Of a stretch of 64,000 bases of DNA, positions 32,700 to 58,797 are shown in pieces. The notes beneath the pieces were generated by a model that ran no database searches, had not been told where the DNA came from, and saw only the letters and a list, made by a program, of their open reading frames with translations. How positions within the stretch are numbered: position 1 is the first letter of the stretch; each line of letters opens with the position of its first letter. The DNA is from Candidatus Thiodiazotropha sp. (ex Codakia rugifera) (lineage in GTDB: Bacteria; Pseudomonadota; Gammaproteobacteria; Chromatiales; Chromatiaceae): the NCBI GenBank assembly GCA_025656675.1, contig JAHXHN010000003.1:62001-126000 (forward strand). The letters run 5' to 3'. A program made the translations under genes and the position numbers.

Positions 32700-32715
32700 A
32701 GCAACAACTGTGCCT
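32700..32715 (-). promoter_or_regulatory. Sigma-54 promoter of dihaem cytochrome/pqq genes
   Basis: The minus strand reads AGGCACAGTTGTTGCT, with GG-N10-GC at exact spacing; only the first position (A for T) departs from TGGCAC-N5-TTGC. It faces the cytochrome gene at 32553, about 147 bp away. A matching promoter on the other strand lies at 32929. Confidence 0.7.
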
Positions 32716-32783
32716 ATCTTCCATACCAATTTCCATTAATTTTTGTATTACTTTTTCCTAAACCCCAACCCACACGATAATAA

Positions 32784-32844
32784 AGCGAGGTGTTGTAAGG
32801 TGTTCGCTAGAATGAGAATGATTGGCGACCCCATCTGTGGTGTT
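32784..32844. promoter_or_regulatory. Repeat cluster between divergent sigma-54 promoters
   Basis: AGGTGTT occurs at 32788 and 32798, exactly 10 bp apart, inside an AGCGA...TCGCT inverted repeat (32784-32808). A third GGTGTT is at 32839-32844. The cluster lies between the minus-strand promoter at 32700 and the plus-strand promoter at 32929, where a shared enhancer-binding site would be expected. GGTGTTG is also the reverse complement of the CAACACC core in the exaC palindrome. Confidence 0.4.
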
Positions 32845-32928
32845 CAATATTCGTAGTCAATGCCCCATAAATGAAACAGTCCCATACAATCATCTGGAGA
32901 CTGAAGCTGGTTCAGTAGCGCACTCCTT

Positions 32929-32945
32929 TGGCACAGACTATGCTT
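32929..32945 (+). promoter_or_regulatory. Sigma-54 promoter of ExbB/ExbD-like operon
   Basis: TGGCACAGACTATGCTT has GG-N10-GC spacing and a perfect TGGCAC -24 element. It faces the TTG start at 33001. Its divergent partner at 32700 serves the cytochrome and pqq genes, so the two operons share one control region. Confidence 0.78.
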
Positions 32946-33000
32946 TGTATCACTACTAGTTGTACAAGATTTAAACAGAATAAATAACGAGAAGATCAAT

Positions 33001-33738
33001 TTGCGTCAATCCCAAACAACCTATGGACTGTTTCTTCAATGGCTACTGTTGTTCGGGTTGTTGGCTTTTATTACCTGGCTATTTTGGGATCAGGGCCTAC
33101 TGCAAAAGGTTTTGATATCTGATCCTACGCATATTACCTTGATTATCTTATTACTGTTTCTCATTGCCACAGGCCATTGTGCAACACGTAGCCTCTTTTT
33201 GTCTCATGAACAGAATGCCCTTGGACAGATTATCGCATCTGCCGCAACCAATCCTCCCGGATCAGGTAGCAATCGGTGGTGGGCAGATCAACTGCCCAAC
33301 AGTACATCGCTGTCAGGACAGTTGATAACTGGTGTAGTTGTCAAACAGGATGTTCATCCAGATATTCAGAACAAACCCGACACACAACTGCTTGCGCAGG
33401 TGATGGCAGAACAGGCAAGAGGCCAACATGAAGCAGGCTGGTTTGTCTGTGGCCTGCTGGTAAAACTGGGCCTGCTGGGTACAGTGGTTGGTTTTGTAAT
33501 CATGCTCGCCCCGGTTGCTGAACTGGAGTCTTTTGACTTATCCGATATACAGGGTTTACTACAGCGTATGACTACCGGTATGGGTGTAGCCCTGAATACG
33601 ACCCTGATGGGGCTCAGTTGCAGTATGTTGCTTGGTATGCAGTACTTGATGCTTGACCGTGCTGCCGACCGTCTGGTGGCTGAAGCCATACAGTTTACTG
33701 AAACACGGTTGTTTAACGTGACAGATCAAGGAAAGTGA
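33001..33738 (+). CDS. MotA/TolQ/ExbB-family proton-channel protein
   Basis: This 245-aa membrane protein matches the TolQ/ExbB channel family. It has membrane helices at about residues 10-28 and 40-58. A third is at about 148-166 (GLLVKLGLLGTVVGFVIMLAP), and a fourth at about 190-212 (MTTGMGVALNTTLMGLSCSMLLG). This last part is the conserved GMGVALxTTLxGL signature. It starts at TTG (33001) with GAGAAG upstream, and is followed after 4 bp by an ExbD-like partner. ExbB/D pairs energise TonB or other envelope complexes. The partner and neighbours do not match a normal exbB-exbD-tonB cluster. Confidence 0.85.
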   Translation: MRQSQTTYGLFLQWLLLFGLLAFITWLFWDQGLLQKVLISDPTHITLIILLLFLIATGHCATRSLFLSHEQNALGQIIASAATNPPGSGSNRWWADQLPNSTSLSGQLITGVVVKQDVHPDIQNKPDTQLLAQVMAEQARGQHEAGWFVCGLLVKLGLLGTVVGFVIMLAPVAELESFDLSDIQGLLQRMTTGMGVALNTTLMGLSCSMLLGMQYLMLDRAADRLVAEAIQFTETRLFNVTDQGK

Positions 33739-33742
33739 ATAC

Positions 33743-34351
33743 ATGGCCATGTTTCGCAATCCCCGTCAGTTTGATGCAGATCCATTTACCGACCTGCTGT
33801 TTAATGCCCTGCTTGCGTTTACCTTTTTATTTCTGGTCGCATTGATGTTTTTAAATCCACCCGCAAAGACAGGCGTCATCAATCCCAAGGCCGATTTTCT
33901 GATCTCTGTAACCTGGGCTGATAACAGTCCTGATGATATCGATACATGGATGGAAGGTCCCAATGGCCAACTGATCTGGTTCAAGAATCCCCAGGCGAAT
34001 CTGATGCACTTGGACAGAGACGACCGTGGCATGACCAATGACACCCTGTTGATCAATGGTCAGACTATCCAGAATCCATTGAACCAGGAGATCGTAACCA
34101 TACGGGGTCGCCCCCCTGGCGAATATGTGATTAATGTCCACTACTACAACAGCAAAACACAAAGCTCTGTTCCGGTAACTGTTTATCTGGCGGAAGTAAA
34201 TCCTGCATTGAAAGTGCTGCACTATGCAACCCTGATGCTGGAACGCGTTGGTGAAGAGAAAACAGCTGTACGGTTTACCATCGGCACCAATGGCCAAGTC
34301 AGTGACATTAATACCTTAGAAAAGTCGATTGTCAAAGTAGGAAAGATATGA
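33743..34351 (+). CDS. ExbD/TolR-like single-helix protein fused to a DUF2135/YfaP-like domain
   Basis: This is a 202-aa protein. Its single N-terminal helix, at about residues 16-40 (TDLLFNALLAFTFLFLVALMF), begins with an Asp (D17), as in the TolR/ExbD proton pathway. The rest is not an ExbD periplasmic domain. Residues 50-110 look like a DUF2135/YfaP-type beta domain (DFLISVTWADNSPDDIDTWM, EGPNGQLIWF). The C-terminus is compact beta (RPPGEYVINVHYYNSKTQSS). It ends with an ATGA overlap to the next gene. So the proton channel is linked to a different periplasmic module. The family is recognised in part; the combination is unfamiliar to me. Confidence 0.7.
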   Translation: MAMFRNPRQFDADPFTDLLFNALLAFTFLFLVALMFLNPPAKTGVINPKADFLISVTWADNSPDDIDTWMEGPNGQLIWFKNPQANLMHLDRDDRGMTNDTLLINGQTIQNPLNQEIVTIRGRPPGEYVINVHYYNSKTQSSVPVTVYLAEVNPALKVLHYATLMLERVGEEKTAVRFTIGTNGQVSDINTLEKSIVKVGKI

Positions 34352-34863
34352 GTGAATCCGTACTCCTGCTGCTGCTCGCATACGTTGCTTTGGCCGCATT
34401 GGTAGCGGCGGCATTGATTGCAAGCCGATTTCCCTTCCTGGTCAAACTCATCATCCTGCTAGTGACCACTGCACTCTATTTTGTCAGTTACCAGGGTTGG
34501 CAATCAGCTCAAGGCTGGCCCGCCAAGGCAGATGTTCCTGAGCGTTTTTTACTGCACGCTTCAGTCGTCGATGAACCCGACAAGAGTACCGGATCTCCAG
34601 GCTCGATTACAATCTGGGCATCGGACCTTGGTAGCGGAAAACCGGCTGATGAACCCCGCGCCTACCAACTAAGTTACGGCAAAGCGCTCCATTCCGATTT
34701 AGAGGATGCGCTAAGAAACATGCGCAACGGCATTATTCAACTAGGACGGATTACGGTTTCCGACAATCAGTCTGACAGGCCCACAGACTTCACACGTTTC
34801 GGCGAGAAGAGAGAGAAGATCGAGATCTACTCCCTCCCCGATCCAGCACTGCCGGAAAAATGA
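34348..34863 (+). CDS. Two-helix membrane protein of ExbB/D-like operon, unknown
   Basis: This is a 171-aa protein with two closely spaced N-terminal membrane helices (about residues 5-25 and 31-49), then a periplasmic C-terminal region. That region is mixed alpha/beta with SITIWASDLGSGKPADEPRAYQLSYGKALHSDLEDA. I do not recognise a family. ATGA overlaps at both ends make it translationally coupled to its neighbours. A subunit of an envelope complex with the preceding two proteins is the simplest reading. Confidence 0.7.
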   Translation: MSESVLLLLLAYVALAALVAAALIASRFPFLVKLIILLVTTALYFVSYQGWQSAQGWPAKADVPERFLLHASVVDEPDKSTGSPGSITIWASDLGSGKPADEPRAYQLSYGKALHSDLEDALRNMRNGIIQLGRITVSDNQSDRPTDFTRFGEKREKIEIYSLPDPALPEK

Positions 34864-35561
34864 GAATTTCTCTTACGATAGTATTGTCTGTTATTTTTCT
34901 ACAATCGTGTTCGAATGCAGCGTTCGATACTCAGAGCTATTTCCCAATGCAGCCAGGTATGCGGTGGGACTATCAGGTCTCGACTGAAGTTGCCAATGGC
35001 AGAGAAAACTCTGAGTATACTATTTCCATTGGTGAAGCAGAGTTGGTTAACGGAGTTCCATACAGTGTGCGTATCACCAGTGATGGCACACGTTATTATG
35101 TAACTGAGAATGAAACCGGGATCTATCGTATAGCCAAGCGCACCCTGGTTGAAAGCAAACCCGTGTTAGATGATGCACCAAACTGGATTTTAAAATATCC
35201 CTATAAAATAGGTACCAGCTGGAGCAACAATACATCCCCTTTTGTATTACGTCGCATCCATCCCTATGAAGAGCGACTCACACGTGGCATGAACCTCAAG
35301 ATGGCCTTCCAGATAGCTGCCGAGGATGAAACAGTGGTTGTGCCAGCTGGTCAGTTTAAACACTGCATACGCGTTGACGGAGAGGCGAACTTTACAATCT
35401 ATGCAGATGCCAGTAGTGGTTATGAAGAGATATTGATCAATACGACAGAGTGGTATGCCCCCGGTGTCGGATTGGTGAAATTATTGCGTGAAGAACCCCT
35501 GGATAACGGTGTATTCGCAGGGGGGCATGTATTATTTGAATTGAAGAAGCTCATGTATTGA
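34860..35561 (+). CDS. Exported lipoprotein of ExbB/D-like operon, unknown
   Basis: This is a 233-aa protein with a lipobox (FLQSC at about residues 13-17), so probably an outer-membrane or periplasm-facing lipoprotein. The body has an all-beta look (YFPMQPGMRWDYQVSTEV, PYSVRITSDGTRYYV, TEWYAPGVGLVKLLREE). This shape is shared by several DUF-type lipoproteins, but I cannot name the family. It is the last of four genes and starts at the ATGA overlap with the preceding gene. Confidence 0.7.
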   Translation: MRISLTIVLSVIFLQSCSNAAFDTQSYFPMQPGMRWDYQVSTEVANGRENSEYTISIGEAELVNGVPYSVRITSDGTRYYVTENETGIYRIAKRTLVESKPVLDDAPNWILKYPYKIGTSWSNNTSPFVLRRIHPYEERLTRGMNLKMAFQIAAEDETVVVPAGQFKHCIRVDGEANFTIYADASSGYEEILINTTEWYAPGVGLVKLLREEPLDNGVFAGGHVLFELKKLMY

Positions 35562-35680
35562 TTGATTCCACCCATGATCAAGTGGACAGAGCAACCCTTT
35601 ATCATTAAGAATTCAAAGACGCAGTACAGATTGTCACAGAACTAGTGAAATGAATAACTATGGGGAATGTGCCTATTGAA

Positions 35681-36724
35681 TCAGTGTTTTTTGACAAAGT
35701 CACGGAAACCAATCTTTTCATAATGTGCACCTGCAACATAGTCAGCGAGACCACGTAAAACACGTTTATCGACAATAATACCGCTATGACGGTGTATCTC
35801 TTCACCGTCTTTTCCCAGGAAAATCATGGTCGGTGTACGTACCACTCTATGAAACTCCCTGGAATAGGCCATCATCGTTGTTTTAGTACCATCCGGTGCA
35901 ATGAGTGGTGATTTGTTATCAAGGTCCAGTGAGAATGAGAGAAAATCTTTCCGGTAGTGACGTATCAGGTCAAGATCTCTCAATACACTCTTTCGCATGC
36001 GACGACAAAAGGGACAATCTTCTGTTTCAAAAAAAAACATCAAACCTTTTAACCCAGGCTCATCACGTACTTTGTTAGCAGCGATGGTGAGATCGTCATC
36101 CAAGCAGTCAAAGAATGCAGTTTCGCTACCTGTCTGGCAATCCTCAATTCCTGTCATGTTTGGCAGGGGGATGGGATGGCCGTGTACCAGCTCAAGTCCC
36201 GCTTCATCCCAACCATCACTTCCTTCCGGGTACCAGTACAAGTTGCGATACCCAATTTCATCGGCCCTTTTGACCGCATTCCATGACATCCAACAATCCA
36301 CCACACAATAGAAGACCAACGGCCGGTCCTTATTGCCATCAGTAAAACGCTCCAAGTTACTTTCAAGATAGGTCATCATACGCTGGGTGAGCTGTCCATA
36401 CCCAACATTCGGCAACCATCTGCTACCGGGGATATGCCATCGCTGTTTGTTTGGCAACCAGGCAATACCGAATTCTTCAGATTCAGGACGAATCGTTATC
36501 GCTTGAACATCGAGCAGTAACGGTTTTTTTATACGCATCAGCTCTACCAACTGCTCAGTATCAACCCGTTCTCCTACCGGTGGTGTTTCAGGCAGTGCCG
36601 CACGATAACGTGCGATACGATAACCTTCAGCTGAAAACAGCGTATTGTCATTTGCGTTGAGTACAACAGGCAACAGCAGAAAGATCAAACAAACCATTGC
36701 ACTTGCATTCGACCTGCCCATCAT
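35681..36724 (-). CDS. CXXCW rhodanese domain fused to thioredoxin-like domain, PQQ-associated
   Basis: This 347-aa exported protein has a signal peptide (about residues 7-24). An N-terminal rhodanese-like domain (about 45-175) has the PQQ-associated CXXCW motif (FYCVVDCWMSWNAVKRADEIGYRNLYWYPEG). A C-terminal thioredoxin-like domain (about 220-340) has FFETEDCPFCRRMRK and the cis-Pro region RVVRTPTMIFLGKDG, as in SoxW. The two parts are normally separate proteins, so this is a fusion. It is the last gene of the quinoprotein operon. Redox repair of periplasmic thiols is inferred from domain types. Confidence 0.9.
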   Translation of the reverse strand: MMGRSNASAMVCLIFLLLPVVLNANDNTLFSAEGYRIARYRAALPETPPVGERVDTEQLVELMRIKKPLLLDVQAITIRPESEEFGIAWLPNKQRWHIPGSRWLPNVGYGQLTQRMMTYLESNLERFTDGNKDRPLVFYCVVDCWMSWNAVKRADEIGYRNLYWYPEGSDGWDEAGLELVHGHPIPLPNMTGIEDCQTGSETAFFDCLDDDLTIAANKVRDEPGLKGLMFFFETEDCPFCRRMRKSVLRDLDLIRHYRKDFLSFSLDLDNKSPLIAPDGTKTTMMAYSREFHRVVRTPTMIFLGKDGEEIHRHSGIIVDKRVLRGLADYVAGAHYEKIGFRDFVKKH

Positions 36725-36730
36725 ACAGTT

Positions 36731-37678
36731 TCAGTCCTGTTCAACCCTGCCCCGGCCCAGGGCCTTTGCCTCGATATCAGGAAACAGATGAGCAACCGAA
36801 CGTTGAAACTCTTCACGAAATACAGCCAGTTTTGCAATCGATGAAGGTGCATCTGATTCCAGCACTTCCGCCATAGTCTGACCTGTCTCTGCAGCCTGAC
36901 TCAACCTGTTAATGAGCCATTCCAGATATTCACGTGTCTGAACAATAGGTAGTGAATCCGAAACAACATGACCATGTCCAGGTACCAGTAATTTGAATTT
37001 CAGGGAAGAGAGTGTATCCAATGCCTGCATCCACCGTGTTACATCCGCATGCGGAGTGGTGGGTGTACGGCCATGAAAGACAACATCTGCTGCAAACAGT
37101 ACACCAGTTGTTTGATCCAGGATGACCAGATCAGCATGTGAATGACCATCCATCTCAATAAGGCGCAGACGGTGGCCACCCACATCAACAACACCGGGGT
37201 TCACTGATTGGGTAGGCAATACAACACGGGTACCCGCCATCCAGGCGCCCGCGAGGCGATACATACTGTCATTGAATAACTCACCCTGCTCACGTATACC
37301 TTCGATGGTACTCGGCAATGCAGCAATCTGGATATCCTCAAAAGCCTGATTGCCCAGGATATGATCCGGATGCAGGTGTGTATTAAAGACTTTGACAATC
37401 GGCTGGTCGGTAATTTTTCCTATCGCTGTTCGCAACTGTTCACCATACAGTCGAGAAGGCCCAGTATCGATAACAATAACCCCCTTCTCGGTAACAATAA
37501 ATCCGGTATTGACAATATTGCCCCCATTGCGGAAATTAAAATGTTCATTCTGTCCAAGTAGTACATAAGTACCGGGGGCAATCTCTTTGGGTGTCAGGCC
37601 GTAGTCTTTAGCACCCCAGGCTGGAGAGATCATGACCATGATGACAATAAAGAGAAGCAGTTGTGTGACTGGCATCAT
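36731..37678 (-). CDS. Quinoprotein relay zinc metallohydrolase (MBL fold)
   Basis: This 315-aa exported metallo-beta-lactamase protein carries NTHLHPDHILGNQAF (HxHxDH site) and the downstream EMDGHSHADLVIL and VPGHGHVVSD histidines. The family is repeatedly adjacent to PQQ dehydrogenases and SoxYZ-like carriers and is called quinoprotein relay system zinc metallohydrolase. The start overlaps the SoxYZ-like gene by ATGA. A signal peptide covers residues 1-22. It probably acts on a carrier-bound sulfur or thioester group, as proposed from the SoxYZ connection. Confidence 0.9.
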   Translation of the reverse strand: MMPVTQLLLFIVIMVMISPAWGAKDYGLTPKEIAPGTYVLLGQNEHFNFRNGGNIVNTGFIVTEKGVIVIDTGPSRLYGEQLRTAIGKITDQPIVKVFNTHLHPDHILGNQAFEDIQIAALPSTIEGIREQGELFNDSMYRLAGAWMAGTRVVLPTQSVNPGVVDVGGHRLRLIEMDGHSHADLVILDQTTGVLFAADVVFHGRTPTTPHADVTRWMQALDTLSSLKFKLLVPGHGHVVSDSLPIVQTREYLEWLINRLSQAAETGQTMAEVLESDAPSSIAKLAVFREEFQRSVAHLFPDIEAKALGRGRVEQD

Positions 37679-38460
37679 TTTTTGTCACCGCTCAAGCCTG
37701 CCAATATCCGGGCCTGTACCGGATTTCCATTATTGTCTTCACCTTGAACCTTTACCACATTCAGCTTAGGTAGATCCAGGGTGATAACAGGATTTTCAGA
37801 AACAGGCTCGTATAAAAAAAGTCGTGTCAGCAGATCACCGGCATTATCCTGCAGCTCCAATCGATTTATAAAAAATGCAGGGATACCGGATACCAACCCT
37901 GTATCCATGGGATGCATGATGCGCATACGCAGACGAGTTGACTGATCCCCAGGCCAGAGTCGACCACTCACCTCCCCCATTCTGCTGGCCCAATCTTCAT
38001 TGTCACTACTGAGACTGGGTGCAGTACAGCCGCCACCCGCAGCCTCGACAATATGGCCACCCACATGCCATTGTCCGTCGGGAGTAAGCGCTGCTGCACG
38101 AACCGGCGTGGCCTGTTGCACCTTGATACGGAATCCAATCAAAGGTTTGGATTGACGTGGTTCCATCTCCAGCACCTTATGGATTGGATTGAGTTCAGCA
38201 AAAACCAACAGACGAGTAACTTTACCGAGTGCTGTGGCATCCACCAACACAGGAACATTCATAGAATCTTCAGCGTCACCAGGTAGCAATACCCGCACCT
38301 GATCATCAAATACAACAGGTGCATCACCTAACAGCGATCGCCGCATCTCTTTCCACATCACTGAATCAAGAGGATCGGGCGATACCTCTTCTGTATGTGC
38401 AACCGGTGTCAGGCAATAAAGGAAAATAAAGAGCATGCCAGGTGCCATCAATTTAATCAT
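37675..38460 (-). CDS. Quinoprotein dehydrogenase-associated SoxYZ-like carrier
   Basis: This 261-aa exported protein combines SoxY-like and SoxZ-like halves. The SoxY-type part (about residues 40-160) ends with GGHIVEAAGGGCTAP, carrying the carrier Cys. The SoxZ-type part (about 165-240) has STRLRMRIMHPMDTGLVSG. The N-terminal signal ends near VAHT-EE. It is coupled by ATGA to both neighbours. The family always accompanies PQQ alcohol dehydrogenase clusters; its exact reaction is unproven. Confidence 0.92.
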   Translation of the reverse strand: MIKLMAPGMLFIFLYCLTPVAHTEEVSPDPLDSVMWKEMRRSLLGDAPVVFDDQVRVLLPGDAEDSMNVPVLVDATALGKVTRLLVFAELNPIHKVLEMEPRQSKPLIGFRIKVQQATPVRAAALTPDGQWHVGGHIVEAAGGGCTAPSLSSDNEDWASRMGEVSGRLWPGDQSTRLRMRIMHPMDTGLVSGIPAFFINRLELQDNAGDLLTRLFLYEPVSENPVITLDLPKLNVVKVQGEDNNGNPVQARILAGLSGDKK

Positions 38461-39065
38461 GATGCCTCTCCCTTGGGTATGATCCTTTTAATAATAATAC
38501 GCCGTAGCCAGTGCTTATCAGATGCTTCATACAATTCATTGGGATCGATAGGACGAAGATCTCCCTCCTCAGGTGGTGCCTGAAGCACATTCAAATCGGT
38601 TTCTCTCAAGTTTCCCTCAAAACCGTTATCAAGTTGCGTGAATTTGAAATAGAGTCCGTTCCAGGCGTTGATACCATACTCTTGCGGTGATTTATGCAGA
38701 AACAGCATGTCATATTCCAGATCAGTCAGATCATCGTTGCTTAGTTTACGATGTATTTTATAAGGGTATGGCAGGTGACAGATCAATTGAGTGGGATGAG
38801 GCAGACATTTAAATGGACGCATAGAGAGAAAATGATTTTCAAACTGAGAATCGTCCCAGTCAATGCGATAGTTTTGACTATCACCTTGATCGATTAATTC
38901 AATAGTGCCGAGCTCTCTGTAATCACCTTGCTGATCAACGGTAAGTATGCGGTAGTAGTTACTATCCGCAACAGCATAACCTCCCATTGTCACCACATAC
39001 AGCAGTGCGTTTCCTAGCCAATAGATACAACGCTTCTTATCAGTTACGTTGTGCGAGTCGTTCAT
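38457..39065 (-). CDS. Exported protein of quinoprotein operon, unknown
   Basis: This 202-aa protein has an N-terminal hydrophobic segment at about residues 14-32 (YWLGNALLYVVTMGGYAV). Its body is beta-rich with SNYYRILTVDQQGDYRELGTIELIDQG and the Cys pair MRPFKCLPHPTQLICHLP. I do not recognise the family. It starts at the ATG at 39065, not the TTG at 39083; both overlap the binding-protein gene. It stops with ATGA into the SoxYZ-like gene. Its place inside the operon is the only functional hint. Confidence 0.7.
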   Translation of the reverse strand: MNDSHNVTDKKRCIYWLGNALLYVVTMGGYAVADSNYYRILTVDQQGDYRELGTIELIDQGDSQNYRIDWDDSQFENHFLSMRPFKCLPHPTQLICHLPYPYKIHRKLSNDDLTDLEYDMLFLHKSPQEYGINAWNGLYFKFTQLDNGFEGNLRETDLNVLQAPPEEGDLRPIDPNELYEASDKHWLRRIIIKRIIPKGEAS

Positions 39066-39951
39066 TCGACTCAACCTTAGCAAGTCTTAAGCGACTCGGT
39101 AGTTGATACGTGGAGTGGTATTGGGCAAAGATCTCATTCAATGAGCCTTTCTGTCGAAGTTGTGTCATGGCTTTTTCGACAGCTTGTGCCAGTGCATCAT
39201 TGCCCTGTTTAACGGCAACACCAAGATCCCAACCGCTATTGCGCAGACCCGGCATCTGTACAGGACCTACAGCATAGTCTGTGTATTGATCACCTAGCGC
39301 AAATTCTATCTCACTGCGAGGCCCTGCGACACCCGCCAGATCTCCTTTTTTCAAGGCGGCAACCGCTTCGCCAATATTGGGAAAATGAACAACCTGATTT
39401 CGAATCTTTCCGTTGTAAGCGGTTAATAGATAAAAATCGGTTAAGGTATCCAACTCGACACCGACCTTCTCACGACTAAAATACTCAAGTGGATCAAGGT
39501 TTGCGCCCTGACCCTTTTCAACGGCGATCACAACCTGTTCCCGATAGTATGGTGCGACAAAGATCACACGATCATTCGCTTTGGCAAAGGCAGCATCATA
39601 GGGAACGTGCAGCATCACATCGGCAACACCGCCGCCCAGATAGTGACCTTTCCAGACATTATTACGTAAATCATCTCCCATGGATTCATCCGCACCTACC
39701 GCTCTGATAGCTGCTGCCACACCAAGACTTTTAGCGATGGCTCGCGCAATATCCGCATCAATACCAACGATCCTACCCTGTTCGTCACGATAGGAGAATG
39801 GAGGGAAATTGGTGTAGACGGCAACTTCCAAAACACCACGTTCACGTATCCGATCGAGTGCTGATTCACCTTCCTGAGCAATTGCGAAATTCTGCACTGC
39901 AAGCGAGGCTACCATAGTTGCAATGATAAAAAGCCTTTTGATCTTATCCAT
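39040..39951 (-). CDS. Periplasmic binding protein of quinoprotein cluster (PedG/XoxJ type)
   Basis: This 303-aa SBP_bac_3-type protein has a signal peptide at about residues 1-25 (ending near AIAQ). Family signatures are LEVAVYTNFPPFSYRDEQG, IVGIDADIARAIAK and GGGVADVMLHVPYD. Such proteins are linked to PQQ dehydrogenases and are often called quinoprotein dehydrogenase-associated ABC transporter substrate-binding protein, with XoxJ as a methylotroph relative. There is no ABC permease next to it. It lies 27 bp after the cytochrome gene. A role in supporting dehydrogenase assembly or activity is inferred. Confidence 0.88.
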   Translation of the reverse strand: MDKIKRLFIIATMVASLAVQNFAIAQEGESALDRIRERGVLEVAVYTNFPPFSYRDEQGRIVGIDADIARAIAKSLGVAAAIRAVGADESMGDDLRNNVWKGHYLGGGVADVMLHVPYDAAFAKANDRVIFVAPYYREQVVIAVEKGQGANLDPLEYFSREKVGVELDTLTDFYLLTAYNGKIRNQVVHFPNIGEAVAALKKGDLAGVAGPRSEIEFALGDQYTDYAVGPVQMPGLRNSGWDLGVAVKQGNDALAQAVEKAMTQLRQKGSLNEIFAQYHSTYQLPSRLRLAKVESNERLAQRN

Positions 39952-39978
39952 ATTTCCCTCTACTTTTATTAACAGTGA

Positions 39979-40407
39979 TTATTCATCCACAGGTAGGGTG
40001 ACAAGCCAGGCTCGAATGGACCAGAGCGCCTCCTGCGAAAGAATGCCTTCAAACGGCGGCATATAAGTAATTCCATTCCGAATTGCGCCATTGCGAGTCC
40101 GATAGAGATACCACTCATCGCCTTCATCCTCAGCTGGAAGCAAGCGAAGATCGGGGGCGATACCACCGGAAACAGCACCCAGACCATGGCAACGCGCACA
40201 GTTTTGATTATACGCGGAAGCCCCTGTCTTGATTGCATCAGCATTGTCACGATAAGGATTGACCTCAAGCCACTCTTCACCCAGTTGCGGCAGATTCTTG
40301 GTATCAACGGCTTGTGGTGTCACATTGCCGTGCGCCATTACATTACCTGCAATAATAGTCGAGAGCAGTACACCAAGACCGACTTTTATTGATGTTGATA
40401 TTTGCAT
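39979..40407 (-). CDS. pedF: Cytochrome c-550 PedF-type electron acceptor
   Basis: This is a 142-aa cytochrome with signal peptide ending at VMA-H. It begins HGNVTPQAVDTKNLPQLGEEWLEVNPYR, the PedF family start. The haem site is CARCHGLGAVSGGIAPDLR, and MPPF (Met ligand) lies in the C-terminal region. It is the predicted direct acceptor of electrons from the PQQ dehydrogenase. The start was moved to the ATG at 40407 to match family length and signal peptide. It lies after a large hairpin behind the dehydrogenase gene. Confidence 0.93.
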   Translation of the reverse strand: MQISTSIKVGLGVLLSTIIAGNVMAHGNVTPQAVDTKNLPQLGEEWLEVNPYRDNADAIKTGASAYNQNCARCHGLGAVSGGIAPDLRLLPAEDEGDEWYLYRTRNGAIRNGITYMPPFEGILSQEALWSIRAWLVTLPVDE

Positions 40408-40542
40408 GTGGAAATACTCCGGGTATTCGATCAGGAAATAGGTGGATGATCCGTGGCGTGCTTCCTGGTCATCTTCCAATTTCAGTATCAGCAATTAATA
40501 CATCGACTTATAGATTACTGTTTTGCATAAAAGTGTTGCACA

Positions 40543-40572
40543 GGGTCGGTTTTGAACATTCAAAACCGACCC
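40543..40572 (-). terminator. 30-bp intercistronic hairpin after the dehydrogenase gene
   Basis: GGGTCGGTTTTGAA (40543-40556) pairs perfectly with TTCAAAACCGACCC (40559-40572) over a 2-base loop. It sits just after the dehydrogenase stop codon and 136 bp before pedF. No T-run follows closely on the minus strand, so it may protect mRNA ends or attenuate rather than fully terminate. Confidence 0.65.
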
Positions 40573-40585
40573 ATTGTTTCACTAA

Positions 40586-42352
40586 TTAGACATCAGACAA
40601 CTTAAACACCCAGAGTGAGCCACCCTGGTTCAGATACTTGACCTTCTTAGCGACATCACCGCCCCAGAGAGGTACCGCACCACCCCAACCAGAGGGCACT
40701 GCGATGAACTGTTCACCATCCTGCTCCCAGGTAACAGGACAGCCAACCACACCAGAGCCAGTCTGGAATTTCCACAGCTCCTCCCCTGTCTTATCATCGA
40801 ATGCCTTCAAAAAGCCTTCTGGAGTACCGGTAAATACCAAACCGCCACCGGTTGTCATTACACCACCCCACAGCGGTGCGTTGTTCTTGTATTCCCAGAC
40901 AACCTTTCCACTCTTAGGATCAACTGCCCGTAAAGCGCCGATATAATCCTCGTTAAGTGGCTTGATTGTGAAACCAGCACCCAGATAGGCGGCACCTTTT
41001 TTGTAGGTGATGGGTTCGTTCCACAGATCCATACCCCACTCGTTGGCAGGTACATAGAAGAGTTCGGTATCAGGACTGTAGGCCATCGGCATCCAGTTTT
41101 TTGCGCCTAAAAATGAAGGTGCTACAAATACTGATTCACCCTTCTTACCGTCCTTACTCTTGGTCGGATCTCCAGCGCGCACACCTGTCTCGATTGGACG
41201 ACCGGTCTTCAGATCAACACCCTTGGCCCAGTCAATCCGGTTAACAAATGGAAAGGCATTTTCTAAATTGCCGTTGGTACGATCCAGGACATAGAAGAAA
41301 CCGTTTCGATCTGCATGGCCCGCCAGCTTCTTACCACCTGTATTGAATGAAACCAATTCATTGACGCCGTCGTAATCCCAGCCATCATTCGGCGTGTACT
41401 GATAATGCCAGGAGATCTTGCCGGTATCCGGATCAAGCGCAAGCGTGGATGTAGCGTAGAGATTATCACCGGGACGTAGATGAGCATTCCATGGTGCTGG
41501 ATTACCTGTACCGTAAAAGATCAGGTCGACTTCATGGTCATAGCTACCGCCCTGCCATGTAGCGGCACCGCCTGTCTTCCACATATCACCTGGCCAAGTG
41601 GCGTTTGTTGTACCGGTTATACCGTTTTCAACCTTTTTTCCATCCTTCCAGATATAACCCATGTGACCTTCTATCGAAGGTCGTATCCAGCGCATCTTAC
41701 CTGTCTTGGCATCACGCGCTTCTACACGCCCAACCACACCAAATTCACCACCAGAGACACCCGTGATGACCATATCCTTGACAATCAAGGGGGCGGCTGT
41801 CATTGAATAACCAGCTTTATAATCGTCCACTTTCGCTCTCCAGACGACTTTTCCTGTTTCCTGGCTCAAGGCAATGATTCGTGCATCCAGGGTACCGAAT
41901 ATAACCAGATCATCGTAAAGCGCTGCGCCACGGTTAACTACATCACAACAGGGTAATATGCCATCAGGAAGGCGATGATCATACTGCCATAACTCTTCTC
42001 CGGTTTTACTATCGATGGCATATAGACGGGAATAGGATGCGGTTACAAACATCTTGCCATCTTTAATGACCGGTTGTGCTTCCTGACCTCGTTGTTTTTC
42101 ACCGCCAAACGAGAAACTCCATGCGGGTACAAGTTTCTTTACATTTTTCTTGTTAACTTTATTGAGTGGGCTATAACGCTGGCCCTGCTGGCCTATACCC
42201 CAACTCAACACATCACCAGTACTGGTTGCATCGGCATCAATATCAGCCTGAGTTGTACGTGCGCTGGCAGAACCGGCAAACACAACAGCGGCACCAAGGC
42301 TGGCTATAGCGACCCTGTTGAGCAACGTCGTTTTTCGATACGGGGAAATCAT
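40586..42352 (-). CDS. PQQ-dependent alcohol dehydrogenase, probably lanthanide-dependent (PedH/XoxF type)
   Basis: This 588-aa periplasmic quinoprotein has a signal peptide (about residues 1-32). The disulfide pair Cys135-Cys136 ([12 protein letters not shown]) clamps PQQ. Metal and catalytic residues are visible: Glu203 (GGEFG), Asn284 (GTGNPAP), catalytic Asp326 ([11 protein letters not shown]). Asp328, two positions after the catalytic Asp, is the extra residue that separates lanthanide-dependent enzymes from Ca-dependent MxaF. Beta-propeller W motifs recur ([27 protein letters not shown]). Gene context (PedF, SoxYZ-like carrier, relay metallohydrolase) matches the ped/exa type. Natural substrate (methanol, ethanol, other alcohols) is not readable. 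RBS GGAGGAG precedes the ATG. Confidence 0.93.
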
Positions 42353-42436: not shown

Positions 42437-42453
42437 AGCAAAAAGCGGGCCAA
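42437..42453 (-). promoter_or_regulatory. Sigma-54 promoter of quinoprotein operon
   Basis: The minus strand reads TTGGCCCGCTTTTTGCT, a GG-N10-GC match with a T-rich -12 half. It lies 85 bp upstream of the dehydrogenase ATG. The surrounding region also holds inverted repeats such as GATCGG...CCGATC at about 42548-42569. Confidence 0.82.
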
Positions 42454-42670
42454 TTGATGTATTGTGCCTCTCTTTGCGCCAAAAAATATGATCATTTATA
42501 GATACTTAAGAAGTATTTACGGTTAAGATTCAGAAGAGAAAAAAAAGATCGGTACAGCTTGTCCGATCCATCTTGTCACGGTTTCGAGACAGTGGGTCAA
42601 GACTCATACAGCTGTAGTCTCGCTGTATCACATAGCTTGTTGAATAGTGGTTTTTAAAGTCTCACTTTCA

Positions 42671-44271: not shown

Positions 44272-44667
44272 CCCTGCAGGTTTTGTATCTAGATTTGATC
44301 ACTGGATATTGAATGAGTGGTTTTCTACTATGCTATATCAGTAGCTTGCAACGATTGATATAAAGCTAAATTCCTGGATGGTATAGATAACTGTTGGCTT
44401 GGCTGATAACGAAAAATTCGTACAAACACGCAATGCTTGTAGGTAAGCTGCTTTAGCGGTTAAGCTAATCAGATTCCCCTATATATTTCTTGGTTATTCT
44501 ATTCTGGAAGATCACTGCACTGAGAGGCTGGTACTGGTTAAACATTCTTGATGTATCGGAAATGACACAGTTATTGTGCAAATACCTGAAAATAAGAGTA
44601 GATTGATTTGCTATAAATAATAAAGATACTGCGGCCTATCCGTAGATCAATTTGGTTGGAGGAAATC
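44272..44667. other. Intergenic region upstream of sigma-54 activator gene
   Basis: This 396-bp AT-rich stretch holds the TATATCA...TGATATA inverted repeat (about 44334-44362) and the promoter(s) of the activator at 44668. I find no GG-N10-GC match facing the activator, so it is probably sigma-70-driven; I cannot pick one -35/-10 pair with confidence. A good GGAGGA precedes the ATG at 44668. Confidence 0.4.
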
Positions 44668-48151: not shown

Positions 48152-48162
48152 GACTATCTCAT

Positions 48163-49542
48163 ATGAGTGGAAAATCAGATATCTCGGTGTTGTTGGTGGA
48201 TGACGAAAAACTTTTTGTCAGAGCAGCATGTAAACTGCTTGGGCGAGCGGGTCTGTCTTGTATCGGTTGCCATTTACTGGAAAAGGCACGACAGCTATTG
48301 AATGAGACGCAACCCAAGGTTGTATTACTGGATGTACGTCTGCCAGATGGTTCAGGCCTGGAGTTATTAGAAGAACTTTCACAAACGGTAGACCCACCTT
48401 CTGTCGTCGTACTTACTGCATTTGCAGATATTGAAGATGCTGTAACAGCCATGAAACAGGGTGCTGCCGATTATCTGCAAAAACCTTGTGATATGGATCA
48501 TATCATTCAAATTGTCAAACGCCTGTTGAAAAATGGCAACACCAGTAAACAAGAAGTTTTACATAATATTAGTGGGAGACCAGACACCCAATTGGTCGGT
48601 GAAACAAGTGAAATCGAGGCATTGCGTCAACAATTAGATAATATCGGCAGACTCAGTCAACGCTCTGAATTACCTCCACCAACAGTCTTGCTGACAGGAG
48701 AAACAGGCGCTGGTAAGGGGCTGGCAGCAAGGCATCTACATGCAACCAGCGCACGTCATCCAGCCCCATTCATACAGGTAGATTGTGCCACATTACCACG
48801 GGATCTGATTGAATCAGAGTTGTTTGGTCATACCAAAGGAGCATTCACTGGCGCTCATCGCGACAAGGTAGGACTTATCGAACAAGCAACAGGAGGCACA
48901 CTGTTTCTGGATGAAATTGGTGAATTGCCACTGGAACTACAAGCAAAATTACTGACCCTCCTAGACAGACGCTGCGCTCGACGAGTGGGTGCGACAGAGG
49001 AGTACTCGGTCGATGCCTGGTTTATAGCCGCAACCCACCACAATCTCAAAAAACTGAGTCAGGAAGCGAGTTTTCGACAAGATCTGTTCTATCGACTCAG
49101 CCCACTGACTATCCATGTGCCGTCACTTGTTGAACGCCGGGATGATATTCTTCTTCTGGCCAGACACCATTTGGTAGCGCTGTGTAAACAGTACAAATTT
49201 AACACAGTCTTTTCTACAGCAGCCGAACATACACTCGTGAATCACTCTTGGCCAGGCAACGTTCGGGAGCTGAAGGGTGTTGTTGAAAGAGCTTTATATG
49301 CATGCAACGGTGATCCTATTGATCCTATCCATCTTGGCCTGACGTCTCAACAGGAACTGGACACATCTCAAAACGTCCACGATGCCGGTTCACTGCAGCA
49401 GGCTGAAATTGAAATGGTTAGTCGTACACTGTATGAAACTAAGGGGAATGTCTCCGAAGCCGCACGTCGCTTAGGAATGACACGGATGATGCTGCGTTAC
49501 CGTATCCGAAAATATGGCCTGTCAGAGAAGTCATCAGTCTAA
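48163..49542 (+). CDS. Sigma-54-dependent response regulator of second pair
   Basis: This 459-aa NtrC-type regulator has a receiver (VLLVDDEKLFVRAA; phospho-Asp in VVLLDVRLPDGSG), an AAA+ domain with GETGAGKG and GAFTGAHR, Walker B GGTLFLDEIGEL, and a Fis-type HTH (VSEAARRLGMTRMMLRYRIRKYG). The kinase partner is directly upstream. It can activate any of the sigma-54 promoters of the window; exaC is nearest downstream. Confidence 0.92.
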   Translation: MSGKSDISVLLVDDEKLFVRAACKLLGRAGLSCIGCHLLEKARQLLNETQPKVVLLDVRLPDGSGLELLEELSQTVDPPSVVVLTAFADIEDAVTAMKQGAADYLQKPCDMDHIIQIVKRLLKNGNTSKQEVLHNISGRPDTQLVGETSEIEALRQQLDNIGRLSQRSELPPPTVLLTGETGAGKGLAARHLHATSARHPAPFIQVDCATLPRDLIESELFGHTKGAFTGAHRDKVGLIEQATGGTLFLDEIGELPLELQAKLLTLLDRRCARRVGATEEYSVDAWFIAATHHNLKKLSQEASFRQDLFYRLSPLTIHVPSLVERRDDILLLARHHLVALCKQYKFNTVFSTAAEHTLVNHSWPGNVRELKGVVERALYACNGDPIDPIHLGLTSQQELDTSQNVHDAGSLQQAEIEMVSRTLYETKGNVSEAARRLGMTRMMLRYRIRKYGLSEKSSV

Positions 49543-49556
49543 GAAAAGGCCTGAAG

Positions 49557-50975: not shown

Positions 50976-52496
50976 ATGATTTATGTTGAACCAAACGAAA
51001 CCGGTAGCAAAGTTGAATTTAAATCCCGCTATGAAAACTATATTGGCGGTCATTGGGTAGCCCCTGCAGAAGGACGCTATTTTGAAAATGTGAGTCCGGT
51101 CAATGGTAAGAGCTTTTGTGAAATACCTCGCTCCTCAGCCCTTGATATTGATCTGGCTATTGATGCAGCCCATGCAGCTAAGGATGGCTGGGGTAAGACA
51201 TCGGTTACTGAACGCTCTAACATACTACTCAGGATTGCTGATCGTATTGAACAGAATATAGAAACCCTGGCTGTAGCGGAGACCTGGGATAATGGGAAAG
51301 CGATACGAGAGACCTTGAATGCGGATGTGCCATTGTGTGTCGATCATTTCCGCTACTATGCCGGTTGTCTACGTGCTCAAGAAGGCACCATGAGTGAGAT
51401 TGACGAAAAAACGGTTGCCTACCATTTTCATGAACCCCTCGGCGTAGTTGGACAGATCATTCCTTGGAACTTCCCATTACTGATGGCGGCCTGGAAACTG
51501 GCGCCTGCGCTCGCTGCAGGTAATTGTATTGTGCTAAAACCCGCCGAACAGACACCCGCTTCCATTCTGATACTGTTAGAACTCATAGGTGACCTGCTTC
51601 CAGCTGGTGTATTGAATGTTGTCAATGGCTACGGAAAAGAGGCTGGTCAAGCACTAGCTACCAGTAATCGTATTGCAAAAATTGCTTTTACAGGCTCTAC
51701 ACCGGTTGGCTCACATATACTCAAATGTGCCGCTGAAAATATCATTCCTTCAACAGTTGAATTGGGAGGAAAATCGCCTAATATCTATTTTGAAGATGTA
51801 CTGGACCAAGAAGATGCATTTGTCAGCAAAGCAGTAGAAGGTGCTGTACTGGCTTTCTTCAATCAGGGTGAAGTGTGCACATGTCCATCACGCTTGCTTA
51901 TCCAGGAATCCATCTACGATGAGTTTATCAGTAGGGTTATAGACCGTGCTCAACAAATTAAAAGAGGCAACCCTCTCGATACGGAAACCATGGTAGGTGC
52001 CCAAGCTTCAAAAGAACAGTATGAAAAAATACTCAGTTACATGAAAATCGGAGATGAAGAAGGCGCTGAAGTGATCGTTGGTGGAGGAGTAGAGACAATG
52101 GAGAGTAACTATAGCGATGGTTACTATATCCAACCTACCCTTCTCAAGGGCCACAATAAGATGCGTATCTTTCAGGAAGAGATATTCGGACCGGTTGTCT
52201 CAGTAGCCACCTTCAAAGATGAGGCTGAAGCACTGGAAATTGCCAATGACACGGAGTTTGGCCTTGGCGCCGGATTGTGGACACGCGATATGAATCGCTC
52301 ATACCGTATGGGAAGGGGTATTCAAGCCGGTCGTGTCTGGACTAATTGTTATCATCTCTACCCAGCTCATGCAGCCTTTGGTGGTTATAAGAAATCCGGT
52401 GTTGGTCGCGAAACCCATAAAATGATGCTGGATCATTATCAGCAAACCAAGAATATGTTGGTGAGTTACGATATCAACCCATTAGGATTCTTTTAG
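50976..52496 (+). CDS. exaC: ExaC-type NAD-dependent aldehyde dehydrogenase
   Basis: This 506-aa enzyme oxidises the aldehyde made by the PQQ dehydrogenase. Motifs: NWDxGK-type [30 protein letters not shown] (substrate and cofactor), [12 protein letters not shown] (NAD), [10 protein letters not shown] (catalytic Glu), and [12 protein letters not shown] with catalytic Cys. The AdhX/ExaC group is identified by this Cys region and by the C-terminal end GFF. RBS GAGGAGA precedes ATG. The sigma-54 promoter upstream suggests co-induction with the quinoprotein operon. Confidence 0.94.
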
Positions 52497-55093: not shown

Positions 55094-55297
55094 GTGAACC
55101 ATTTCAACGACCCTGTTAATGCATACTTCTACTTACCCTAACCCAGGGTAGCTCTGAACAGGTCATAGACGGCCATCATGTGACAAAAAAACTTCTGCCT
55201 CTGCGTTGTCAATCATGACAATTGACCGGCTATTGCCTGCGATTGACGCCTTGACGCGAAAGTTTTCTGGCTCACAATCTGACTCGTCCAAACTTGT

Positions 55298-56062: not shown

Positions 56063-56796
56063 CGGGTAAGATGATTTTCCAATGGTCGCATCAGCATCGA
56101 TTCGATGCTGTATATCACTAATACAAAGGCCAGTGTATAGGCAAGTATACTGGTGATATCGAAGAACTGAAAAAATGTGCTGAGCTGAAATCCAACCCCA
56201 TCGCTTCGACCCAAAAGTTCTACAACCAGTACAATCTTCCAGATCAGGGAGAGTCCTGACCTGGCAGCTGTCATGAGATAGGGATAGAGTTGGGGCATGT
56301 AGATATGAATCAATCTTCGAATCAGCGAAACCTGGAAAACATCGCCGACCTGAAGCAGTTGGTGATCGATAGCTCGAACACCTTCACGTACAGTCACTGC
56401 GACCAAAGGCATTTTGTTGATGGCTACTGCTGCAACAGCGGCTGCCTCTACGAGACCAAACCAGACGTAACATAAAATGATGATGACCAAGGCAGGAATA
56501 TTGAGTCCCATTATCAATACTCCGTCCAGTATGGTGTCGATGAGAGGGAAGCGGCCCATAAGAAAACCAACGATAACCCCCACCACCATTGCCAGAGTAA
56601 ATGCCAGTAGAACCCTGCGAAGAGTAACAATGATACTCTGCAATAAGTCGCCTTCTATCAAATGAAACCAAAGTGACTGCAGGACTTCCAATGGACCGGG
56701 TAACTGATCACTCTGCAGCAACAGTGCTGCGACCTGCCAGATGCACAGGAAAACGCCGAGAAAAAGCCACCTTCCCCAGGTACTACCTTGCAACAT
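56050..56796 (-). CDS. NitT/TauT-type ABC transporter permease
   Basis: This 248-aa permease has about six membrane helices and the BPD loop VAAVAINKMPLVAVTVREGVRAI. Its C-terminal part (ITSILAYTLAFVLVIYSIESMLMRPLENHL) fits the SsuC type. It overlaps the SBP gene by 14 bp and the ATPase by 13 bp. Confidence 0.92.
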   Translation of the reverse strand: MLQGSTWGRWLFLGVFLCIWQVAALLLQSDQLPGPLEVLQSLWFHLIEGDLLQSIIVTLRRVLLAFTLAMVVGVIVGFLMGRFPLIDTILDGVLIMGLNIPALVIIILCYVWFGLVEAAAVAAVAINKMPLVAVTVREGVRAIDHQLLQVGDVFQVSLIRRLIHIYMPQLYPYLMTAARSGLSLIWKIVLVVELLGRSDGVGFQLSTFFQFFDITSILAYTLAFVLVIYSIESMLMRPLENHLTRWRS

Positions 56797-57775
56797 CGTT
56801 ATTGATCAACTCCGCGCTATTTTGAATTTGCCAGAAGGTACCAGGCAACAGTGCTGTCGCTTTACCTACCAATCGCCTGCCCCCTTCCCTGGCCAGCACA
56901 TCAAAAACTTTGGTTGCAACGCTTGCGCCATTGTTTATTAGACCGCGTGGTATGCCATTTCTATAACCATCCCTCAGGTTTTTCAAGGTAGCATCATCTT
57001 TTGCCTTAGTCAGTGGTGCGATGGAATCCCACTCCTGATCACTTTCATACAATATCCGTTTCGCTGCATATGAAGCCCTGAGAAAGCCATCAATCACTTT
57101 AGGATGTTCGCTCGCCCATGTGGATGAGAATACCCAGCCAAGCATAGGGACAGTTTCCTTAATGCCTAGCCCTTCCATTATCGATCTGACATTGATTAAG
57201 GGGACCATGCCTAAGGCCTCCAAGCGAGCACCAAAATGCCAGAAATTCAATACCGCAGGCAATTCGCCTTTAATCATCAATTGATTGAGAAGCGGTGGTG
57301 CCGCGAAAGCAGGTTCAACCGATTTTGTGAGACTCACTCCCTGTTGACGGCTATAAGCCTGAAGTAGAAGCCAGCTCTTATCAACAGGTCCACCGGCAAT
57401 CCCCAGTTTGCGATCTTTCAGGTCTTCTATACGATCAATCCCTGAATCGGGTCGGACATAGAGTCCGCCAACCGTGAGTGAATAGGGAAAAAAGCTGTAG
57501 TCTTTTCCAGCTGCACGTTGTCGATTAACCCAGATCCAATCACTCACTATAACATCGACAGCTCCTCCCTGAAGTGCAACGCTGACTGCATTTTTGGAAC
57601 TCAGGGGCACTATTTTCAATTCGATATCATTTGCTATATCCAATTTATAGCGATCGATAACATCCATTTCCCAATTAACGGTTCCATATTGCAGTAAGCC
57701 AACTCGTACTTGTTCGACAGCATGGAGTGGCATAATAAAAAAGAACAATAATAAGCCAAGAGTATGTCTGCTCAT
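56783..57775 (-). CDS. NitT/TauT-type ABC transporter periplasmic binding protein
   Basis: This 330-aa binding protein has a signal peptide at about residues 1-20. It reads VRVGLLQYGTVNWEMDVI, then GGAVDVIVSDWIWVNRQRAAGKD. Its SsuA/THI5-like fold carries typical signature positions (DRKLGIAGGPVDKSW). Substrate class is unknown: taurine, sulfonate, nitrate or a metal chelate are all possible. It starts the three-gene operon facing away from the TonB receptor on the opposite strand. Confidence 0.9.
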   Translation of the reverse strand: MSRHTLGLLLFFFIMPLHAVEQVRVGLLQYGTVNWEMDVIDRYKLDIANDIELKIVPLSSKNAVSVALQGGAVDVIVSDWIWVNRQRAAGKDYSFFPYSLTVGGLYVRPDSGIDRIEDLKDRKLGIAGGPVDKSWLLLQAYSRQQGVSLTKSVEPAFAAPPLLNQLMIKGELPAVLNFWHFGARLEALGMVPLINVRSIMEGLGIKETVPMLGWVFSSTWASEHPKVIDGFLRASYAAKRILYESDQEWDSIAPLTKAKDDATLKNLRDGYRNGIPRGLINNGASVATKVFDVLAREGGRRLVGKATALLPGTFWQIQNSAELINNDVAR

Positions 57776-57988
57776 GATACCAATTCATCTAAAAAAAAAG
57801 CATTCTCTAGCAAGTATGCTGAATGCTTTTTGCTACTGAAATATCAGGCTGAAAGAGCCAAATATACGGGTTATATCGTTAATAAACAACTTACCGATTC
57901 AACATCCAGTGCTGAAATGTATAAAGGTAAATTGATTGGTACTAGTATAGAACACTGCACTAGCATGTATTAAGAAATATTCAGAATG

Positions 57989-58414
57989 TTATGGATATAA
58001 TTGTGACAAATCATTGAGCAGAGCCACATATATCCCATGGCAGAACTCAACAGCATCCTCAGAATTTGAATCCCATGACGATGACCATTCCACCTTGGTG
58101 CCAGCATTATCACCTGCCTGGCTAAGCTTTACGACACCAAAATAATTCGAGACTTCCTCTTTTGATACAGGTGAAGGTCCATCATCAATTGAGTATTTCA
58201 AATAGTACTCGGTCGGTAGATACTCAACCAGTGTTTCGTGAAAAACACCATTCAAAATTCGCTTGGCACCAACGCAGTCTCCATCTTTATTACCTACTTT
58301 TATATTTTTACTAATGACATTAGATGCCCAGGAGAGATCGTGAAAGTTGCTGAATCTTTTCCAAACTTCGGTTATCGGTGCATTAACAACGATTGATTGA
58401 TCAGTTAATGGCAT
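57989..58414 (-). CDS. SRPBCC-family protein
   Basis: This 141-aa soluble START-like protein has the SRPBCC pattern: SIVVNAPITEVWKRFSNFHDLSWASNV at the N-terminus, and KLSQAGDNAGTKVEWSSSW near residue 110. Its ligand is unknown. It is monocistronic, with 213 bp between it and the ABC binding-protein gene. Confidence 0.85.
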   Translation of the reverse strand: MPLTDQSIVVNAPITEVWKRFSNFHDLSWASNVISKNIKVGNKDGDCVGAKRILNGVFHETLVEYLPTEYYLKYSIDDGPSPVSKEEVSNYFGVVKLSQAGDNAGTKVEWSSSWDSNSEDAVEFCHGIYVALLNDLSQLYP

Positions 58415-58781
58415 TACATATTCTCCAACGGCAATTTGTTATTGTTTGATTAAGCTTTTCCTATGACTTGCTACAGCCTTGTTTCCTAACAGGATAGGAC
58501 AACTTTTTCAAATAGTCTTCTCAATAATGATGAACTTAGAGAAAGTAAACACCATCCGGAATTGATATCCATATCGTTGAGTCGAAGCACTCAAGAAAAT
58601 AATAATAATCCATCTGAATTGGCAACCAGCAGAGTCCTGAGCACCCATACAATACGCTGTACCACAATAGCGCAACACACTCTCTGTGATTGTATTAAAA
58701 AAGAGACACTTCCATAGACATAAGCTTTTAAACCAAGGCAGACTCTAGCTATCCTGCTGTTATATCTATCAATAAATTTAG
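58415..58781. other. Intergenic region upstream of porin promoter
   Basis: AT-rich spacer between the divergent SRPBCC and porin genes. No ORF longer than about 60 codons on either strand looks coding. CAATAGCGCAACACACTC-type motifs around 58668-58685 resemble the CAACA elements upstream of the other sigma-54 promoters, but the match is weak. Confidence 0.35.
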
Positions 58782-58797
58782 TGGCATATTCATTGCA
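58782..58797 (+). promoter_or_regulatory. Sigma-54 promoter of the porin gene
   Basis: TGGCATATTCATTGCA has exact GG-N10-GC spacing and the TTGC -12 half. It lies 137 bp upstream of the porin ATG at 58919. Confidence 0.78.

Follow-up and report, generated by a model that had tools for sequence, protein, structure and literature searches.

A predicted sigma-54 programme for quinoprotein alcohol oxidation in a Candidatus Thiodiazotropha genome

The stretch of DNA analysed here, called the window, covers 64,000 nucleotides (positions 62001-126000 of contig C3) of a genome of 4.65 Mb in 19 contigs, and it holds a gene cluster for alcohol oxidation around a PedH-like pyrroloquinoline quinone (PQQ) alcohol dehydrogenase, hereafter the quinoprotein. 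By sequence comparison, the genome groups with Candidatus Thiodiazotropha, sulfur-oxidising gill symbionts of lucinid clams; the quinoprotein shares 97% identity with one from a Candidatus Thiodiazotropha genome, and a search of 21 other genomes of the genus found the gene in 12, with identities of 84-97%. It appears quite probable that the window carries a sigma-54 alcohol-oxidation regulon, in which six promoters would be served by the activator encoded at 44656-46677, and that the promoter of the NhaD operon stands apart. A sequence-only reading of the same DNA had assigned all seven promoters to one regulon; from that proposal we retain a sigma-54 programme that is conserved and centred on alcohol oxidation by the quinoprotein, and we remove the NhaD operon, which has a kinase/regulator pair and a dyad of its own. 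In other words, we probably see six promoters of one regulon and one separate unit, so that a single dedicated programme probably switches on the use of alcohol.

Promoter sites and their conservation

Promoters recognized by sigma-54 have a TGGCAC-N5-TTGCW-like element at -24/-12 with fixed spacing. The bare pattern GG-N10-GC was present at all seven places where the sequence-only reading had put it; taken alone it is uninformative, with 448 matches in the window on both strands. We therefore rely on a 16-position sigma-54 matrix, the values of which come from general knowledge and were not derived from these data. With this matrix the seven sites score 14.4-17.4 bits and account for seven of the nine window matches of at least 14 bits. 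They are the sole intergenic matches at that level (8138 of the 64000 bases are intergenic, by a list of open reading frames (ORFs) without two short pqq ORFs), and the remaining two (56930, minus strand, and 62567, plus strand) lie within ORFs. In 60 order-2 Markov simulations, the mean number of such matches was 1.33 and the maximum 4. The distance from the start of a site to the next start codon used is 45-317 bp. At the sequence level, then, the -24/-12 pattern with its fixed spacing occurs above chance, as is expected of sigma-54 promoters, and a gene for sigma-54 is found elsewhere in the genome. Genome-wide there are at least 446 pattern matches against at least 187 for the reversed pattern, an excess in which no match was assigned to a gene. 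The sites are as follows.

42437-42452, minus strand: quinoprotein operon, 15.5 bits
44256-44271, minus strand: gene of an oxidoreductase with flavin adenine dinucleotide (FAD), 15.5 bits
32700-32715, minus strand: dihaem cytochrome/pqq genes, 14.4 bits
32929-32944, plus strand: ExbB-like operon, 15.7 bits
50710-50725, plus strand: exaC, 16.1 bits
58782-58797, plus strand: porin gene, 17.4 bits
13097-13112, plus strand: NhaD operon (separate unit), 17.3 bits
29630-29645, minus strand: weaker eighth candidate upstream of the probable pqqA, 13.4 bits, with GT at -12

The eighth candidate is kept at equal score in G001, the nearest relative. For the other sites, the 450 bases upstream of each orthologue were scored with the sigma-54 matrix, and 123 upstream regions served as the control set; one control reaches 14 bits, and the 95th and 99th percentiles are 13.2 and 13.5 bits. 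Conservation among orthologues, which the sequence-only reading had named as a check, speaks for the proposal, because all six sites recur while their flanks have diverged. The quinoprotein site scores 14.3-15.5 bits in 12/12 carriers of the gene in the same genus, the porin site 17.4 bits in 5/5 same-genus relatives, and the exaC site 16.1 bits in the 4/4 loci with exaC within reach. The dihaem cytochrome/pqq and ExbB-like sites are kept in 8/8 relatives each (13.9-14.4 and 13.9-16.2 bits, respectively), and the FAD oxidoreductase site in 6/6 full-length orthologous regions (13.1-15.5 bits), six further rows being too short. Pairwise agreement is 98% in the core, 60% in the spacer and 36% in the flanks of segments anchored on the best match; because this anchoring favours the core, we give more weight to the comparison of scores. 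No conserved -24/-12 site was found upstream of the TonB receptor, the ABC (ATP-binding cassette) operon, the second kinase or the activator gene, with exceptions at 14.0-15.0 bits for the activator in G007 and G010, the ABC operon in G111 and a distant TonB match in L045.

The candidate activator and the enhancer-like dyads

Three sigma-54 activators had been counted in the window from the sequence alone. Pfam bears this out: all three match Sigma54_activat, and they carry GAFTGA or GAYTGA loops. Their genes and the dyads near the promoters are listed here.

44656-46677, plus strand: GAF-PAS-AAA+-Fis sigma-54 activator, AcoR/DhaR-like, the proposed master activator (Pfam domains, GAFTGA, Walker motifs)
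46697-49542, plus strand: kinase and NtrC-type regulator; of 10 relatives, one has them at the cluster
10054-12934, minus strand: NtrC-type regulator and kinase, oriented divergently to the NhaD operon, which they likely control
42572-42593, no strand: enhancer-like dyad upstream of the quinoprotein promoter (conserved alignment block, motif)
44550-44571, no strand: enhancer-like dyad between the FAD oxidoreductase and activator genes, rank 2 in the window
58689-58710, no strand: enhancer-like dyad upstream of the porin promoter, rank 3 in the window
12941-13035, no strand: a pair of GTTKCA-N3-TGMAAC dyads preceding the NhaD site; the motif occurs nowhere else in the window

The GAF-PAS protein encoded at 44656-46677 is the likely activator of the promoters, judging from its domains and its distribution. 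It combines Sigma54_activat, a GAFTGA loop, Walker motifs and a Fis-type helix-turn-helix, the features of a sigma-54 activator. We term it AcoR/DhaR-like by domain order only, because the DhaR model NF008485 gave 300.4 bits, under its cut-off of 551; no AcoR model is among the matches listed for the protein. For the NtrC-type protein encoded at 48163-49542, the Walker A pattern GE.G.GK[ED] gave no match. In ten relatives for which long stretches were available (eight from the genus and one each from the family and the class), only the GAF-PAS activator of the three is generally present at the cluster. Over 22 genomes of the genus, counting that of the window, the 13 with an orthologue of at least 58% identity are precisely the 13 with the quinoprotein. 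Two more full-length GAF-PAS paralogues (42-43% identity) are encoded in the genome, at G000:C3:56469-58376 and G000:C2:724003-725910, one of them about 4 kb outside the window.

Site and activator also occur together beyond the genus. In loci longer than 15 kb drawn from many groups, with three duplicates and 22 short loci excluded, a 12-bit site stands before the quinoprotein gene in 14/14 loci with a sigma-54 activator gene and in 2/57 without one. At 13.5 bits the counts are 11/14 with a sigma-54 activator gene and 1/57 without, and the reversed reading, used as a control, gives 0/14 and 1/57. Sites of at least 12 bits together with an activator were also seen in Thiotrichaceae UBA4486, Methyloversatilis and Hydrocarboniphaga. 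In L045, a locus of an uncultured gammaproteobacterium, a 16.3-bit site stands before the quinoprotein and no sigma-54 activator lies in the 21.7 kb covered.

Upstream of the quinoprotein promoter, alignments of relatives contain a conserved block, and the dyad TGTnnCA-N4-TGnnACA is common to the quinoprotein, FAD/activator and porin regions. A search for palindromes de novo scored 66.7 against a maximum of 45.0 in eight simulated sets, a score that the related input sequences inflate; on leave-one-out it recovered the FAD region, with 5/600 controls as good. Because of this relatedness and the instability of leave-one-out, we rely on a dyad matrix built from five quinoprotein orthologue sites alone, for which the other regions are thus held out. 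With it, none of the 2297 control segments is as good as the FAD/activator dyad and none of 2354 as good as the porin dyad, which scores 11.1-13.0 bits in 4/4 relatives scored. In the genome itself, the enhancer pattern occurs 190 times per strand, compared with 114 for the reversed pattern. Exact short palindromes (arms of 4-5 bases) common to the seven upstream regions amounted to one weak pair and gave nothing useful.

Weighing the readings and the proposed mechanism

The NhaD operon was compared across four orthologous loci at 86% identity or more. Its site scores 15.6-18.6 bits in 4/4 of them, and in all four the site, the lead gene and the divergent kinase/regulator genes stay together. 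There is no trace of the shared dyad at NhaD, where 1907 of 2552 controls are as good. We set the operon apart because it has its own divergent kinase/NtrC pair and a different dyad; on this sequence evidence, it is likely a real but separate sigma-54 unit under that pair. Inside the operon lies a phosphoethanolamine-transferase-like gene (15844-17454), for which the four orthologous loci gave no match.

Several observations weigh against a regulon of six promoters under the GAF-PAS activator. The support is sequence comparison, and the substrate of the dehydrogenase is putative. Sites of 13.1-13.9 bits overlap the upper end of the controls and are less secure, given the percentiles above, and exaC lies away from the cluster in several relatives. 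The dyad matches at cytochrome/ExbB (320/2358 controls as good) and exaC (1442/2354) are not significant, and the de novo leave-one-out failed for the quinoprotein, cytochrome, porin and exaC regions. The FAD/activator dyad is visible in the G001 alignment, and in G003, G015 and G019 with one base less of spacing; owing to that spacing or to a position beyond the stretch scored, the matrix did not find it in these relatives. As regards co-occurrence, the 12-bit line was fixed once the scores were known, and one genus supplies 8 of the 14 activator loci; among the excluded short loci, L041 (13 kb) has an activator, its best score before the quinoprotein being 4.4 bits and thus no site, whereas L051 (14 kb) has a 15.5-bit site with no activator in view. 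One shared enhancer motif at all promoters was not found, as cytochrome/ExbB, exaC and NhaD lack it. In terms of sequence, three promoter regions are tied by the motif and the others by conserved sites and neighbourhood, on which joint control of cytochrome/ExbB and exaC would rest.

That the seven matches are chance or non-functional sequence, with the genes served by other promoters, would fit the abundance of GG-N10-GC and the use of a scoring matrix that was not built from these data. The simulations, the intergenic position of the sites, their conservation amid diverging flanks and their co-occurrence with activator genes make this highly improbable. The original proposal of one regulon and one activator for all seven sites, NhaD included, draws on the good scores within a single window; given that NhaD keeps its divergent kinase/regulator in 4/4 loci and has its own dyad in place of the shared one, we regard it as very improbable. 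More can be said for the adjacent two-component pair, the kinase and its NtrC-type regulator (48163-49542), which might activate these sigma-54 promoters or share the work. Two-component systems control ped/exa genes in Pseudomonas, the pair lies directly 3' of the GAF-PAS gene and 5' of exaC, the regulator has a GAFTGA loop, and exaC is without the shared dyad. On the other hand, the kinase is at the cluster in G001 alone among the 10 relatives, and the sites persist in the others; we consider this explanation unlikely.

The preferred reading, control of six promoters by the GAF-PAS activator, builds on what was computed: the sites, their conservation, the domains of the activator, its co-occurrence with the quinoprotein and the sites, and the dyad found in three of the promoter regions. 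From these we infer binding, an inducer, dependence on RpoN, the substrate of the pathway and a common activator for cytochrome/ExbB and exaC, as follows. RNA polymerase with sigma-54 would wait at the -24/-12 elements of the quinoprotein, FAD oxidoreductase, porin, cytochrome/pqq, ExbB-like and exaC promoters. The AcoR-type protein may sense a cytoplasmic signal through its GAF/PAS domains (the alcohol, its aldehyde or the redox state), would bind the upstream dyad TGTnnCA-N4-TGnnACA and would open the promoters by ATP hydrolysis. The porin, the periplasmic PedH-like dehydrogenase with PQQ, c-type cytochromes and ExaC would then take the alcohol towards acetate, and the NhaD operon would be run separately by its own kinase/regulator pair through sigma-54. 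The genes concerned are the following.

40586-42352, minus strand: PedH-like quinoprotein alcohol dehydrogenase (TIGR03075, over cut-off)
35681-40494, minus strand: remaining quinoprotein operon, with PedF-type cytochrome, binding protein, unknown protein, SoxYZ-like carrier, SoxH-like hydrolase and CXXCW protein
42671-43954, minus strand: pyridine-nucleotide-disulphide oxidoreductase (FAD) (PF07992; best NCBIfam match under its cut-off)
28279-32553, minus strand: dihaem cytochrome, pqqB, pqqC, probable pqqD and pqqA, pqqE
33001-35561, plus strand: four-gene ExbB-like operon (the first gene matches MotA_ExbB, the other three have no assignment)
50976-52496, plus strand: exaC, acetaldehyde dehydrogenase (NF050026, 958.7 bits, cut-off 900)
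58874-60106, plus strand: porin (PF13609)

The quinoprotein operon as a whole spans 35681-42352. An extra aspartate two residues past the catalytic one marks lanthanide-type PQQ alcohol dehydrogenases, and by this residue the quinoprotein is predicted to be of that type: in its WDYD motif (residues 325-328) the position is Asp, as in 6zcv/6zcw, its nearest solved sequences, and is Ser in ExaA (1flg). The gene that had been labelled a flavin reductase encodes instead a pyridine-nucleotide-disulphide oxidoreductase by its PF07992 match, with no substrate assigned. The genes pqqB, pqqC and pqqE follow that of a protein with two CXXCH motifs, and a 27-residue ORF at 29469-29645, similar to PqqA by its motif, is presumably pqqA. 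In two Thiothrix loci (L050, L054), an ExbB-like pair, the second protein of which is 69% identical, comes after the CXXCW gene and shares the strand of the quinoprotein; therefore this proton-channel-like unit seems, from its neighbours, to travel with the PQQ alcohol dehydrogenase.

Methanol genes and known systems

Outside the window, -24/-12 sites also precede the other quinoprotein of this genome (XoxF-like, a label drawn from PMC11237559 and from gene neighbours), the formylmethanofuran dehydrogenase operon, beta-RFAP synthase and formate dehydrogenase. The sigma-54-like sites kept in relatives are these.

L158:9906, minus strand: XoxF-like quinoprotein
L157:14822, minus strand: formate dehydrogenase
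L158:15165, minus strand: formylmethanofuran dehydrogenase
L158:15369, plus strand: beta-RFAP synthase
L157:6960, minus strand: a downstream gene cluster

Both xoxF and formate dehydrogenase are preceded by the 16-mer TGGCACACAAGTTGCG, which has no further copy in the genome. With the window's genome counted, the xoxF site is present in 12/13 distinct genomes scored (G114, at 68% identity, is without it), the fdhB site in 7/7, the fhcB site in 5/5 and the beta-RFAP synthase site in 5/5 at 13.3-13.9 bits; 24 downstream-gene controls reach 9.9 bits at most. A paralogous AcoR-type activator gene lies near formate dehydrogenase. A shared enhancer for the methanol genes was not found (47.3 against a maximum of 42.6 in five simulations), and the dyad of the window is not systematic at them, with 12.1 bits at one fdhB region and at most 9.9 at the other 16 regions.

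Lucinid symbionts switch seasonally between sulfide and methanol oxidation, and the authors of PMC12172469 describe the understanding of how these pathways are controlled as still limited. In the metatranscriptomes of the same source, fdhA, exaA (orthogroup GC_00000623), a porin (GC_00000691), beta-RFAP synthase, xoxG, mxaD and mtd are among the genes that reach high transcript levels in both clades solely outside upwelling, in orthogroups unmatched to the genes of this genome. We put forward tentatively, as a possibility, that the whole alcohol metabolism is organized in sigma-54 programmes, the AcoR-type activator serving PedH-like oxidation and its paralogue serving XoxF, the formylmethanofuran/tetrahydromethanopterin enzymes and formate dehydrogenase (methanol to CO2); duplicated activators, each with an enhancer of its own, might then be the switch behind the seasonal sulfide/methanol shift. 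The candidate activator, predicted promoters and dyads make the regulation of these symbiont pathways directly testable by reporter fusions in laboratory strains.

A lucinid symbiont locus with PQQ alcohol dehydrogenase, fused soxYZ and soxH is known, and this soxYZ-S2/PQQ alcohol dehydrogenase locus is apparently the one analysed here; the text consulted does not deal with how its transcription is controlled (PMC11237559). The sequence-only reading had called a complete sigma-54 programme unusual for such genes, which is true in part. In the accessible text of a review of the ped cluster from 2026, neither AcoR nor RpoN is named and sigma-54 comes up once, in connection with CbrB (PMC12997753); precedents exist in Azospirillum brasilense and Ralstonia solanacearum. 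In A. brasilense Sp7, a PQQ alcohol dehydrogenase gene, exaA, is likewise under sigma-54, with a LuxR-type regulator as the partner (Singh 2017, cited in PMC6115532), whereas here a GAF-PAS-AAA+ activator is encoded beside the genes and several operons have sites. In R. solanacearum, rpoN1 is needed for growth on ethanol and an AcoR homologue is predicted to act on exaC (PMC4676750). The combination of AcoR-type activator, sigma-54 and exaC is the same; exaC is the sole predicted target there, whereas in the present genome sites also precede the quinoprotein, porin, cytochrome/pqq and other operons. BmoR of Thauera butanivorans is an alcohol-responsive activator of a sigma-54 promoter, which, unlike here, is that of an alkane monooxygenase (PMC6366067).

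Among the entries listed from the open literature, which leaves out most subscription papers, we found no AAA+ activator that runs a PedH-like or XoxF system through sigma-54, an absence that is weak evidence of novelty. The enzyme and accessory genes of the Pseudomonas ped/exa clusters are closely related to those here; their regulators, PedR1/AgmR and PedS2-PedR2, are not sigma-54 activators as described in the available parts of PMC12997753 and PMC13390443, whereas a sigma-54 activator lies at the cluster here. The parts are of known kinds and their combination is little described, and RpoN control of quinoprotein or ethanol genes has precedents. If the proposal is true, an AAA+ activator with sigma-54 would run a lanthanide-type PQQ dehydrogenase, for which the systems described in the sources at hand use other regulators.

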